Source: Sphingomonas changbaiensis NBRC 104936 (GTDB lineage Bacteria > Pseudomonadota > Alphaproteobacteria > Sphingomonadales > Sphingomonadaceae). Taken from it: 64,000 bases of DNA. Location of the stretch: the NCBI RefSeq assembly GCF_000974765.1, contig NZ_BBWU01000042.1, positions 1 through 64,000 on the forward strand, written 5' to 3'. Shown here piece after piece: positions 6,650 through 55,357 of the stretch. Position 1 is the stretch's first letter. Each line of letters begins with the position of its first letter. The position numbers and the translations under genes were made by a program. The notes below the pieces were generated by a model, which was not told the DNA's origin, made no database searches, and saw only the letters and a program-made list of their open reading frames with translations.

Positions 6650-7288
6650 TCACAGCCCCCCAAAGCCGTTCGCTTCGAGCGAAGTCGAGAAGCGTGTCTC
6701 GACTTCGCTCGACACGAACGGACTCAGGTTGACCGACCGTGAGGACGCGAGCGCGAAACCCTGATGCGTTGCCGCCAGCACAATCCCGCCCGCGGTCTGG
6801 TGCGCGGCGCACGCCTGCTCCAGCCGCCCCACCGATTCGGCGTCGAGCCCATTGGTCGGCTCATCGAGCAGCCAGATGTCCGCGCCGCTCGCGATCACGC
6901 GGGCGAGGGCGGCGCGCTTGCGTTGCCCGGTCGACAGCATCCGGACCGGCACCGGCGCCAGATGGGCGATTCCCATCGCCTCCATTGCCGCGGGAAGCGT
7001 ATCGCCACGCCGGTCCAGCCGGGCCCAGAAGCGCAGCGCCTTTTTCAGCGGGAGATCGCGGTCGAGCGCCACATTCTCATCCGCCAGCGCGACCATACCC
7101 TCGCGCACGACTGTTCCGGCCGCCGCTTCGAGCAAGCCCGCAGCCACGCGCAACAGGCTCGACTTGCCCGCGCCGTTCGGACCGGTGACGATCGCCGCTT
7201 CGCCGGGGCCGAGTGCAAACGACACGCCCTCGAACAGCAGCCGCCCGCCGCGCCAGCAGGCCACGTCATCGAAGCGGAGAGAACTCAC
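6650..7288 (-). CDS. ccmA: Cytochrome c biogenesis ATP-binding protein CcmA, with a repeat-encoded C-terminus
   Basis: The ATPase subunit of CcmAB. In the 212-residue product I see Walker A GPNGAGKS (36-43), signature LSTGQRKRAALAR (118-130), Walker B IWLLDEP (138-144) and the switch His in ATHQ. The normal family end would fall near SSRSVNL (182-188). Residues 190-208 are encoded by the dispersed palindrome at 6666-6721 and are not part of the usual fold. The GTG at 7288 overlaps the stop of the upstream protease gene (GTGA), so translation is coupled. Confidence 0.93.
   Translation of the reverse strand: MSSLRFDDVACWRGGRLLFEGVSFALGPGEAAIVTGPNGAGKSSLLRVAAGLLEAAAGTVVREGMVALADENVALDRDLPLKKALRFWARLDRRGDTLPAAMEAMGIAHLAPVPVRMLSTGQRKRAALARVIASGADIWLLDEPTNGLDAESVGRLEQACAAHQTAGGIVLAATHQGFALASSRSVNLSPFVSSEVETRFSTSLEANGFGGL
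6666..6721. repeat. Dispersed palindrome, copy 1 (inside the ccmA 3' end)
   Basis: A 56-bp, shortened copy of the repeat with arms CCGTTCGnTTCGAGCGAAG and the complement. It lacks about 17 nt of the central loop found in the other copies. It lies wholly within ccmA and encodes residues 190-208. The same first-arm reading frame (PFVSSEVE) is used by the copy in ribD. Confidence 0.9.
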
Positions 7289-7721: not shown

Positions 7722-8015
7722 ATGGTCGAGCAACTGAACGAGGACGAGCGTGCCGCCGCGCTCGATCGGCTGGACGAGTGGGACTATGATGATGCGCGCG
7801 ACGCGCTGACCCGCAGCTTCCTGTTCGCGGATTTCTCCGAAGCGTTCGCGTTCATCACGCGGGTCGCGCTGCTGGCGGAAAAGGCCGACCACCATCCCGA
7901 ATGGTCGAACGTCTGGAACCGGGTCGACATCCTCCTCACCACGCATGATGCCGGAGGCTTGTCGCGGCGCGACGTGCGGATGGCCGAAGCGATCGACCTG
8001 CTGCAATCTTCTTAA
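7722..8015 (+). CDS. phhB: 4a-hydroxytetrahydrobiopterin dehydratase
   Basis: Pterin-4a-carbinolamine dehydratase, which regenerates the pterin cofactor after aromatic hydroxylation. The 97-residue protein contains the family signature [18 protein letters not shown] with the catalytic His pair, and it has the usual length. No phenylalanine hydroxylase gene is in the window, so its partner enzyme is elsewhere. It is transcribed away from the zincin gene, with only 35 nt between starts. Confidence 0.93.
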
Positions 8016-8064
8016 GGCTTTGCTCACCTCTTTTCCGCCATGCAGAGGCAAAAGAGGTCGCCGA

Positions 8065-8481
8065 ATGAAAGAGCATGTCGAAACGCTTTGCCGCCAGCAC
8101 GATGAGCTGCGCGCGCTGGCAACGCAGTATGAGCGCGAGCTGGACAAGGCGCAGCCCGACACGACGGCTCTGTCGAAGTGCCGCTGGACGCTGGCGCGGC
8201 TGATCAGCACGCATCTCGCCTATGAAGGCGCCCATCTCTATCCCGCGCTGGCCCGGAGCGGCGGCCAGGCGACGGAGACGGGCCGCAAAATGGCATCGGA
8301 GATGACGGAGCTGGGCGCGAAGCTGCAGAGTCATGTCCGGGAATGGACAGTGAACGCAATTGCGGACGATTGGGCCGGCTATCGCCGGTCGTCCAAGGCG
8401 CTGATCGCCCTGCTGCGCGCCCGCATGGAGTCGGAAGAAGCCAATCTCTTCCCGCTCGCCGAAATGGGAAGAGCCGCCTGA
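8065..8481 (+). CDS. Hemerythrin-domain protein
   Basis: A 138-residue four-helix protein with spaced metal-ligand candidates: an N-terminal HDELRAL, a central HLAYEGAHLYP, a later HVREW, and a C-terminal ARMESEEANLFP. This arrangement fits hemerythrin-like HHE domains that bind a di-iron centre and sense oxygen or nitric oxide, or handle iron. It follows phhB by 49 nt and precedes the predicted sigma-54 promoter. The exact role is not shown by the sequence. Confidence 0.75.
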   Translation: MKEHVETLCRQHDELRALATQYERELDKAQPDTTALSKCRWTLARLISTHLAYEGAHLYPALARSGGQATETGRKMASEMTELGAKLQSHVREWTVNAIADDWAGYRRSSKALIALLRARMESEEANLFPLAEMGRAA

Positions 8482-8525
8482 CCTTGGCGCATCTTCGGCC
8501 TATTTGGCAAAGATCACCACATTCG

Positions 8526-8563: not shown

Positions 8564-8579
8564 TGGCACGGGCGATGCA
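8564..8579 (+). promoter_or_regulatory. Candidate sigma-54 (RpoN) promoter
   Basis: TGGCACGGGCGATGCA matches the -24/-12 consensus TGGCAC(G/A)N4TTGCA with correct GG-to-GC spacing (10 nt between the pairs). Both invariant dinucleotides are present, with one mismatch in the -12 element. It precedes the 37-residue peptide gene by 54 nt. psp genes of enterobacteria are sigma-54 dependent under PspF, which makes the site credible here. Confidence 0.72.
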
Positions 8580-8633
8580 TTGCCCCTGATGTCCGGCCGG
8601 ATGGTCCGACCGGCCAGTCAGGGAGTTTGAGAG

Positions 8634-8747
8634 ATGACCCGCTTTACTTCCATGTTCGACACCGTCGCTTCGGTCGTCGCCGCTGTTGCCGTCGCCACGA
8701 TGTTCGTTGTCGCCGCCGTCGGCCCCGCCGCGCTGCCGTTCGCGTAA
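8634..8747 (+). CDS. Small membrane peptide upstream of PspC
   Basis: A 37-residue ORF starting MTRFTSMFDTVASVV and continuing as one hydrophobic helix (about residues 9-34). A GGGAG ribosome binding site lies 8 nt upstream of the ATG. Codon use is normal. It sits between the predicted sigma-54 promoter and pspC, in the position that pspB-like small proteins occupy in psp operons, but it has no PspB similarity that I can see. It could be a membrane-stress peptide. The function is unknown. Confidence 0.7.
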   Translation: MTRFTSMFDTVASVVAAVAVATMFVVAAVGPAALPFA

Positions 8748-8774
8748 CCGCAACCGTATCCAGGAGTAATGCCA

Positions 8775-8951
8775 ATGTCTGCATTCCGTCTCGATCGCGG
8801 CAACGCCAAGCTGATGGGCGTGTGCGCGGGAGTGGGCAATGCAACCGGTATCGACCCGCTGCTGATCCGTCTCGCGCTGTTCGTCCTCACGCTGGTGTTG
8901 GGGCCGGTGATGATCCTCGGCTATTTCGTCGCGGCCTGGGCTGCGAACTGA
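8775..8951 (+). CDS. pspC: PspC-domain envelope-stress protein
   Basis: A 58-residue single PspC domain. RLDRGNAKLMGVCAGVGNATGIDPLLIRL is the conserved N-terminal motif, followed by a hydrophobic helix (FVLTLVLGPVMILGYFVAAW). PspC proteins act at the inner membrane in phage-shock or envelope-stress responses, usually with PspB and PspA. The second in-frame ATG (8775) was chosen because AGGAG at 8762-8766 is correctly spaced from it and too close to the ATG at 8769. No pspA, pspB or pspF is adjacent. Confidence 0.9.
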   Translation: MSAFRLDRGNAKLMGVCAGVGNATGIDPLLIRLALFVLTLVLGPVMILGYFVAAWAAN

Positions 8952-9013: not shown

Positions 9014-9541
9014 ATGCTTCGTACTGCCCTTGCCCTGTCGCTGCTGATGTCGACCGCTCCCGCCTTTGCCGCCCTCAGCCCCGGCGCCACCGCGCCCGAT
9101 TTCTCGACCCAGGGCGCGCTGGCCGGCAAGCCGTTCAGCTTCTCGCTGAAGCAGGCGCTCAAGAAGGGCCCGGTGGTCCTCTATTTCTATCCCAAATCCT
9201 TCACGACCGGCTGCACGATCGAGGCGCACGACTTCGCGGAGGCAACGCCCGAGTTCAACAAGCTCGGCGCGACCGTGATCGGCATGTCCGGCGACGATAT
9301 CGACACGCTGAAGCGCTTTTCGACCGAGGAATGCCGCAACAAATTCGCGGTCGCCGCGGCGAGCCCCGAGGTGATCAAGAGCTACGACGTCACACTGCCG
9401 GTGATGTCGAGCCGGTCCAACCGCACCTCGTACGTGATCGCGCCCAACGGCAAGATCGTCTTCGCCTATACGGCGATGAACCCCGAGGGGCATGTGTCCG
9501 GGACACTGGATGCCGTGAAGAAGTGGAAGGGGTCTAGGTAA
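9014..9541 (+). CDS. Periplasmic peroxiredoxin (AhpC/TSA, Bcp-like)
   Basis: A 175-residue protein with a clear Sec signal peptide (MLRTALALSLLMSTAPAFA, cleavage near residue 20) followed by a thioredoxin-fold peroxiredoxin domain. The peroxidatic cysteine is in FTTGCTIEAHDF, corresponding to TPGCT of Bcp. It should reduce peroxides in the periplasm. There is a second Cys in TEECRNKF that could act as resolving cysteine. The gene ends 5 nt before a copy of the dispersed palindrome, facing ridA. Confidence 0.88.
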   Translation: MLRTALALSLLMSTAPAFAALSPGATAPDFSTQGALAGKPFSFSLKQALKKGPVVLYFYPKSFTTGCTIEAHDFAEATPEFNKLGATVIGMSGDDIDTLKRFSTEECRNKFAVAAASPEVIKSYDVTLPVMSSRSNRTSYVIAPNGKIVFAYTAMNPEGHVSGTLDAVKKWKGSR

Positions 9542-9546
9542 GAGAT

Positions 9547-9619
9547 CCGTTCGTTTCGAGCGAAGTCGAGAAACGACAGCTCCGAGCCTGCGCTTCTCGA
9601 CTTCGCTCGAAGCGAACGG
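9547..9619. repeat. Dispersed palindrome, copy 2
   Basis: A 73-bp copy with arms CCGTTCGTTTCGAGCGAAG and complement around an unpaired centre. It fills the gap between the convergent peroxiredoxin and ridA genes, 5 nt from one stop and 7 nt from the other. The position suggests a shared bidirectional terminator or transcript-end stabiliser. Confidence 0.9.
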
Positions 9620-16914: not shown

Positions 16915-16988
16915 CCGTTCGTTTCGAGCGCAGTCGAGAAACGCGCGTGCGTCCCTGCCGGCTTCTCGACTTCGCTCGAAGCGAACGG
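16915..16988. repeat. Dispersed palindrome, copy 3 (between tolR and tolA)
   Basis: A 74-bp copy lying in the 97-nt gap between the tolR stop and the tolA start, inside an otherwise compact operon. It could stabilise or attenuate the transcript and lower TolA relative to TolQR. Confidence 0.9.
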
Positions 16989-26442: not shown

Positions 26443-26515
26443 CCGTTCGCTTCGAGCGCAGTCGAGAAGCGAGATCCCGGAGCAGCCGTTTCTCGACTTC
26501 GCTCGAAACGAACGG
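26443..26515. repeat. Dispersed palindrome, copy 4
   Basis: A 73-bp copy between the convergent pyk and lipoprotein genes, 14 nt from one stop and 7 nt from the other. It has the same placement as copy 2. Confidence 0.9.
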
Positions 26516-48769: not shown

Positions 48770-48842
48770 CCGTTCGTTTCGAGCGAAGTCGAGAAACGGC
48801 CGCTCCGAGCCAGCGCTTCTCGACTTCGCTGGAAGCGAACGG
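48770..48842. repeat. Dispersed palindrome, copy 5
   Basis: A 73-bp copy filling the 94-bp gap between the aldo/keto reductase stop and the folA start, with one arm mismatch. It is 12 nt from the folA ATG and likely affects the folA transcript leader. Confidence 0.9.
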
Positions 48843-51975: not shown

Positions 51976-53006
51976 GCGATCGGGACGACGCGCGCTGGAT
52001 GGGCGCGGCGCTGGCGCTGGCCGAGCGCGGCCGCGGCCGGACCGCACCCAATCCCAATGTCGGCTGTGTAATCGTCAGGGAAGGCCGCGTCGTCGGACGC
52101 GGCTGGACGCAGCCGGGCGGACGGCCGCACGCCGAAGCGATGGCGCTGGCGGAAGCCGGCGCGGAGTCGCGCAGCGCGACTTTGTACGTCACGCTGGAAC
52201 CGTGCGCGCACCGTAGCGAGCGCGGGCCCGCCTGCGCCGACCTGATCGTCGAAGCCGGGCTGGCGCGGGTCATCGCGGCGGTCGAGGACCCCGATCCGCG
52301 CACCGCCGGCGGCGGGTTCGAGCAGCTGCGCGACGCCGGAATCGCGGTGAGCAAGGGTGTGCGCGAGAGCGAAGCGCTGCGATCGTTCGCCGGGTTTATC
52401 GCGCGTCGGCGCTATGGGCGGCCGCATGGGACGCTGAAGATCGCACTGTCGCTCGACGGCCGCATCGCGCTTTGCGACGGGAGCAGCCGCTGGATCACCG
52501 GCGAACCCGCTCGCGCTCACGCCCATCTGGAGCGCAGCCGCCACGAAGCGATCCTGGTCGGGCGCGGGACTTGGGAAGCGGACGCGCCGAAGCTGGACGT
52601 GCGGTTGGAGGGGCTTGAGGATCGGTCGCCTCAGCGCGTCGTCTTGACCTCGAGTCCGTTCGTTTCGAGCGAAGTCGAGAAACGGTCAGGTGCCGAGCAG
52701 TCGCTTCTCGACTGCGCTCGAAGCGAACGGGGTTGGACTGCGATCGGTTCGCCCGACCAAATCGCCACTCTCCCCGCCGACCACCTGCTCGTCGAAGGCG
52801 GCGCCGAGACCGCCGCCGCTTTCCTCCGCGCCGACCTGATCGATCGCCTGCTCCTCTACCGCGCGCCGATTCTGATCGGCGCCGGCAAGAGCGCGATCGG
52901 CGACATCGGTCTTGCGGACCTCGCCGCCGCGCACGGGTGGTGGGAAATGGTGGACGCGCGCCAGCTTGGCAGCGACCGGCTCGAAGTCTACGAGCGGCGC
53001 CGATAA
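51963..53006 (+). CDS. ribD: Riboflavin biosynthesis deaminase/reductase RibD, with a palindrome-encoded insert
   Basis: A bifunctional enzyme: the N-terminal cytidine-deaminase fold has H56-A-E58 and C81/C91 as zinc ligands, and the C-terminal reductase starts near LKIALSLDGRIA. Residues 232-256 are encoded by a 75-bp copy of the dispersed palindrome (52656-52730), exactly 25 codons with no frameshift. The insert sits after RVVLTSS and before WTAIGSPDQIATLPADHLLVEGG, in a loop region of the reductase. The GTG at 51963 is the most likely start. Confidence 0.93.
   Translation: MGLLSDRDDARWMGAALALAERGRGRTAPNPNVGCVIVREGRVVGRGWTQPGGRPHAEAMALAEAGAESRSATLYVTLEPCAHRSERGPACADLIVEAGLARVIAAVEDPDPRTAGGGFEQLRDAGIAVSKGVRESEALRSFAGFIARRRYGRPHGTLKIALSLDGRIALCDGSSRWITGEPARAHAHLERSRHEAILVGRGTWEADAPKLDVRLEGLEDRSPQRVVLTSSPFVSSEVEKRSGAEQSLLDCARSERGWTAIGSPDQIATLPADHLLVEGGAETAAAFLRADLIDRLLLYRAPILIGAGKSAIGDIGLADLAAAHGWWEMVDARQLGSDRLEVYERRR
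52656..52730. repeat. Dispersed palindrome, copy 6 (in frame in ribD)
   Basis: A 75-bp copy, 2 bp longer than the usual 73 bp and the only one fully inside the middle of a coding region. Its length is a multiple of three. The first arm encodes PFVSSEVEKR, the same frame as in ccmA copy 1. Confidence 0.93.
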
Positions 53007-55284: not shown

Positions 55285-55357
55285 CCGTTCGTTTCGAGCG
55301 AAGTCGAGAAACCGGGCACGGCAGCCAGCGCTTCTCGACTTCGCTCGAAGCGAACGG
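55285..55357. repeat. Dispersed palindrome, copy 7
   Basis: A 73-bp copy starting 6 nt after the ribH stop, upstream of the P450 gene. It may end the rib transcript. Confidence 0.9.

Follow-up and report, generated by a model that had tools for sequence, protein, structure and literature searches.

Results

A compact unit of two genes, encoding a 37-residue peptide and a minimal PspC, lies on the forward strand of the window, by which we mean the whole stretch of 64,000 nucleotides of Sphingomonas changbaiensis NBRC 104936 that was analysed. Its features are:

8502..8521, + strand: putative PspF enhancer (upstream activating sequence, UAS), the palindrome ATTTGGCAAAGATCACCACA, scoring 13.6 with a matrix from other genera
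8564..8579, + strand: sigma-54 -24/-12 promoter TGGCACGGGCGATGCA, conserved in 33/33 loci with a short pspC
8593..8613, + strand: stem-loop with a GGAUGGUCC-type loop at the predicted mRNA 5′ end, from fold energy against shuffles
8620..8625, + strand: ribosome binding site AGGGAG of the peptide gene, from the sequence
8634..8747, + strand: single-helix peptide of 37 aa, MTRFTSMFDTVASVVAAVAVATMFVVAAVGPAALPFA (ATG 8634, stop 8745-8747)
8762..8766, + strand: ribosome binding site AGGAG of pspC, from the sequence
8775..8951, + strand: minimal PspC of 58 aa, PF04024 (ATG 8775, stop 8949-8951)

The flanks (7722-8481 and 9014-9541) hold genes for a pterin-4a-carbinolamine dehydratase, a hemerythrin-domain protein and an AhpC/TSA peroxiredoxin, the last with a signal-like N-terminus, and in close relatives (L130-L132) these genes are kept beside the unit. 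The window also contains seven REP-like elements, with 14 matches against 0.04 expected:

6675-6712, 9556-9610, 16924-16979, 26452-26506, 48779-48833, 52665-52721 and 55294-55348: inverted CTCGACTTCGCTCGA pairs, REP-like

The downstream gene of the unit encodes only the membrane domain of PspC. The protein shares with PspC proteins the match to PF04024 (E 2.8e-13, 49.9 bits against a cut-off of 25, over positions 3-53), but with its 58 residues it stays below the equivalog cut-off of TIGR02978 (37.9 versus 104 bits), and the C-terminal half found in the PspC of the genome's own psp operon (126 aa) is absent. It is 95% identical to its counterpart in Sphingomonas horti MAH-20, and in an alignment with 23 relatives G15, V16, G19, D27, R32 and Y50 are invariant. 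AlphaFold, at low confidence (pLDDT 65), predicts a helix at 14-24 and a long helix at 28-57.

The product of the upstream gene matches no Pfam or NCBIfam model. Between the window and S. horti the gene shows 5 synonymous and 0 nonsynonymous changes, which supports it as coding, and the nonsynonymous rate was below the synonymous rate in every peptide pair tested. A first-pass annotation, made from the letters of this DNA, had described GG and GC dinucleotides at exact -24/-12 spacing, a good ribosome binding site followed by a one-helix peptide of 37 residues, and a 58-residue PspC; the first was found at 8564-8579, the second gained the coding support just given, and the third is borne out by PF04024.

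The promoter sequence TGGCACGGGCGATGCA is one base off TGGCACGNNNNTTGCW and is the only site with at most one mismatch in the whole window; transcription is predicted to start near 8590, in agreement with the first-pass annotation. A match taken by itself says little, however, as the 3.2-Mb genome has 9 exact copies of TGGCACGNNNNNTGCW and 6 of a reversed control pattern; what counts is position and conservation. Of the remaining exact -24/-12 matches in this genome, none is followed by such a peptide.

The source contig (C12) belongs to a genome of 3.2 Mb in 53 contigs, which contains rpoN and a true pspF (481 bits against a curated cut-off of 444). The latter lies on another contig (C53), divergent from a full psp operon composed of the site TGGCACGCCGCCTGCA, a 47-aa peptide, pspA, pspB, pspC and three further small ORFs; pspB thus stands in the same operon as a peptide of the family, which heads it. 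The three small ORFs after pspC (L019 2301-3123, minus strand) encode membrane or coiled-coil proteins, the second with a weak match to PspB (E 0.024), and are possibly diverged copies of PspB. Four further NtrC-type activators are encoded besides PspF. The first-pass annotation had remarked that no pspA, pspB or pspF adjoins the unit, as is indeed the case, all three being on C53, and had named rpoN, pspF and the same type of promoter before pspA as things to look for in the genome, where all of them are present.

Three PspC genes were found in the genome, the third of which (96 aa, on C25) lies downstream of a site of its own without a peptide. On C26 there is a fourth unit, in which the site TGGCACGGGCATTGCT is followed by a peptide of 39 aa and then by ORFs for an ABC ATPase (PF00005) and a permease-like protein. 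The coordinates of these units are:

G000:C25:30068-30205 (L020 2950-3239), - strand: third PspC unit, with its own -24/-12 site TGGCACAGCGCCTGCA, a strong enhancer match and no peptide
G000:C26:23671-25000 (L012, L024), and L121, L123: ABC-transporter unit, PspF-type, with one or two peptides, then ABC ATPase and permease-like ORF

Counterparts of the C25-type PspC, with sites, occur in three genomes of the same genus (L068-L070); the ABC-transporter type of unit is seen in three of its genomes.

An enhancer matrix was derived by expectation-maximisation from 25 promoters of other genera, taking the 150 bp in front of each, the window's own genus and the main operons being left out of the training. 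One palindrome of 20 bases, AGTTGGTGAAAATTCCCAAC, emerged without prior knowledge (log-likelihood 221 versus 61 and 65 for shuffled sequences); its start lies at -92 to -94 relative to the site in almost all of the 25 training promoters. The matrix also marks the pspA promoters of the genomes tested, and ranks AGTTAGCGAATTACACTAAC, the UAS between pspF and pspA of E. coli, first of 8964 positions (4.5 kb); in that species, the promoters of pspA and pspG have UAS elements that PspF binds (PMC3709507). In the genome of the window, the pspA promoter on C53 scores 18.2, the C25 unit 16.2, the window 13.6 and the C26 unit 9.8, and a score of 13.6 is reached by 1.6e-5 of window positions. Seven sigma-54-like sites were considered as controls, of which two (L013, L016) were left out and one (L012) is the real fourth unit; the other four, which were counted, all have enhancer scores below 0. 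In the window the enhancer stands at -62 instead of -93, a shift that is common to close relatives, and it is a weaker one than those of other genera. Given that the matrix picks out the pspA promoters as well as the UAS between pspF and pspA of E. coli, the palindrome is best explained by PspF control, under which the unit very likely stands.

Matches to PspC were found in 107 of 118 relatives. All second-unit loci from other genera that were chosen by PspC match (25/25) consist of a site, one to three peptides and a short pspC. An independent sample of 80 named sphingomonad loci was drawn using nothing but the PspC sequence; in it, every PspC gene of at most 75 aa (33/33) is preceded by a site scoring 10-12 of 12 with one to three peptides in between, whereas the long PspC genes (124-130 aa) lie in the main operon without a site of their own. 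Among 444 control stretches of 750 bases from the same loci, none scored 11 or more and 10 reached a score of 10. The joint conservation of promoter, peptide and pspC in sphingomonads, which the first-pass annotation had proposed to check, is seen in both samples.

Conversely, 48 loci were collected solely through matches to the peptide; 46 of them have a site scoring at least 10 and, at -91 to -102, an enhancer that scores above 5, and in the remaining two the site is slightly degenerate, reading TGGCACG-N4-TTG with the final C missing. Behind the peptides come pspC, the pspA operon or, over 1.5 kb, nothing that resembles PspC. The peptide-only units (L241, identical with L258, L243-L246, L250, L251 and L255) carry one to four tandem copies, up to four of them in L250, and the copies have diverged. 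One genome (G536) has the same peptide-only unit at two places (L250, L251) with identical first peptide and promoter. Tandem diverged copies and peptide-only units show that the peptide counts as a product of its own.

A profile built solely from second-unit peptides of other genera finds the peptide of the window at E 0.0024 among 3046 ORFs, where all higher-ranked matches are real, and puts several peptides leading pspA at the top of the same 3046 ORFs; the one leading pspA in the window's own genome has E 0.27. Once the peptide of the window is included in the profile, it scores E 9e-10 with chance matches from 0.2, and in the same search, with the same onset of chance, exactly three peptides of this genome have E of at most 1e-8. 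Matches occur in 78 of 246 genomes of the order, a lower bound given that genomes with such a unit were missed (for example G019, L104), and among the matches listed all are in the window's own family; across the class, 289 genomes gave one marginal match outside that family.

The peptides share a transmembrane core and a C-terminus of a hydrophobic residue followed by alanine. Alanine is the last residue in 85 of 104 distinct peptides, and 78 of the 104 have the hydrophobic-Ala end, compared with 2.2% of a background of 402 long ORFs; since the 104 include related sequences, these 78 are not independent events and a binomial figure overstates the evidence. The tail from a conserved proline to the C-terminus varies in length, so the C-terminus seems to be conserved in its own right. 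At least one lysine or arginine precedes the helix in 93 of the 104 peptides and none follows it in 91, from which, by the positive-inside rule, an N-in, C-out topology is predicted.

The stretch from about -4 to +32 (36 bases) was folded for 56 leaders of second units and ABC units, giving a mean of -13.6 kcal/mol versus -9.0 for shuffled sequences (z -13.8), with modest z-scores for single sequences. Loop centres cluster about 12 bases past the predicted start, often as AUGG loops, while stem sequences vary widely. Because the MAFFT alignment of these stem-loops was poor, presence of the stem was judged by shuffles. Main operons of other genera have shorter leaders, in which the stem is often absent. 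An Rfam search of the 5′ region gave nothing above chance. The stem-loop may plausibly serve to protect the mRNA 5′ end.

Discussion

The above results make it highly probable that the unit is a second PspF/sigma-54 transcription unit, producing a membrane peptide and a minimal PspC as likely effectors. Inhibition of PspF by PspA is established for E. coli only. We infer the course of events, from PspF binding and induction by stress to the mRNA ends, topology and effector role, from sequence, and the role of the peptide from its conservation. In the unstressed cell PspA would keep PspF inactive. Upon stress at the inner membrane, PspF would be released, bind the palindrome at 8502-8521 and contact the sigma-54 polymerase at 8564-8579, giving a two-gene mRNA from about 8590. 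This mRNA would begin with the stem-loop and then encode the transmembrane peptide, predicted to lie N-in with a short C-terminal tail outside that carries the hydrophobic-Ala end, followed by the bare membrane domain of PspC. Most likely, both products would act as membrane effectors adding to the PspABC response, and not as regulators of PspF.

The first-pass annotation had proposed a second compact membrane-stress unit under the same control as psp, with the peptide replacing PspB. The shared enhancer-like palindrome speaks for the first part, whereas the second does not stand: the peptide matches no PspB model, a family peptide and pspB coexist in the main operon, and other relatives of the peptide head an ABC-transporter unit or peptide-only units. 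Since peptide and PspB occur together, the peptide is an added member of the regulon and not a substitute.

Four alternatives to this explanation can be considered. In the first, the hydrophobic-Ala C-terminus would be a ligand or substrate of a PDZ envelope protease or of FtsH, so that PspF would tune membrane proteolysis, with the minimal PspC as a passenger. Nonpolar C-terminal tails are recognised by such proteases in other bacteria, and both the frequency of the hydrophobic-Ala end and the placing of lysine and arginine on the N side fit this idea; against it, shared ancestry weakens the count of 78, and 19 of the 104 peptides do not end in alanine. We regard it as unlikely as it stands, though it is a refinement of the effector explanation and does not exclude it. 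It is more doubtful still that the peptide is a leader tuning the downstream gene by attenuation or translational coupling, with no function of its product. The peptide is short, first in its unit and directly behind the stem-loop, as such a leader would be, but peptide-only units without PspC within 1.5 kb, tandem diverged copies, conservation of amino acids over synonymous sites and a hydrophobic-Ala end kept despite varying tail length all argue against this. Sigma-54 control by an activator other than PspF, for which the four additional NtrC-type activators and the shift of the enhancer to -62 could be invoked, is very improbable given that the enhancer is the same as before pspA and matches that between pspF and pspA of E. 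coli. A chance match to the sigma-54 consensus before ordinary genes, as the nine exact genome matches against six for the reversed control might suggest, is excluded by the conservation at fixed spacing (33/33, 25/25 and 46/48).

New here is the peptide family: across one bacterial family, almost all of the predicted PspF promoters that were examined have such a peptide behind them. Searches of the literature, largely outside subscription journals, turned up no description of the peptides, and neither the peptides nor any mention of sphingomonads were found in the main text of two large Psp surveys (PMC9239133, PMC11237479). The predicted sphingomonad regulon is cut differently, in that a micropeptide is what PspF-type promoters constantly yield. 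With a single enhancer motif, promoter type and peptide family, and several paralogous units in one genome, it offers a clean and testable set, in which natural peptide-only units allow the role of the peptide to be told apart from that of PspC. We tentatively suggest that in Sphingomonadaceae a family of PspF-induced transmembrane micropeptides, present in one to four tandem copies and at times with no psp gene next to them, might be main effectors of protection against membrane stress; their hydrophobic-Ala C-terminus might act on an envelope protease, or on the membrane itself.

The phage-shock response has been studied mainly in enterobacteria, where it comprises six or seven proteins. Among these, PspB and PspD of E. 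coli resemble the peptide as small psp membrane proteins, but PspB also has a part in the cytoplasm, and the genome of the window encodes it separately from the peptide. In Zymomonas mobilis, ZMO1062 (annotated as hypothetical or as pspD) is numbered between the psp gene ZMO1061 and pspA (ZMO1063) and is co-induced with them (PMC8645129, PMC3495753); ZMO1062 may be a counterpart of our peptide. The closest parallel is the E. coli PspF regulon, with its sigma-54 promoters, PspF enhancers and a second target, pspG, away from the main pspABCDE operon (PMC3709507, PMC9239133). The likeness to pspG is one of arrangement. Here the second unit encodes a peptide and PspC, and, unlike in E. coli, one peptide family heads both the second unit and the main operon. 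Like pspG in E. coli, the unit is best understood as one more, auxiliary output of the PspF switch.
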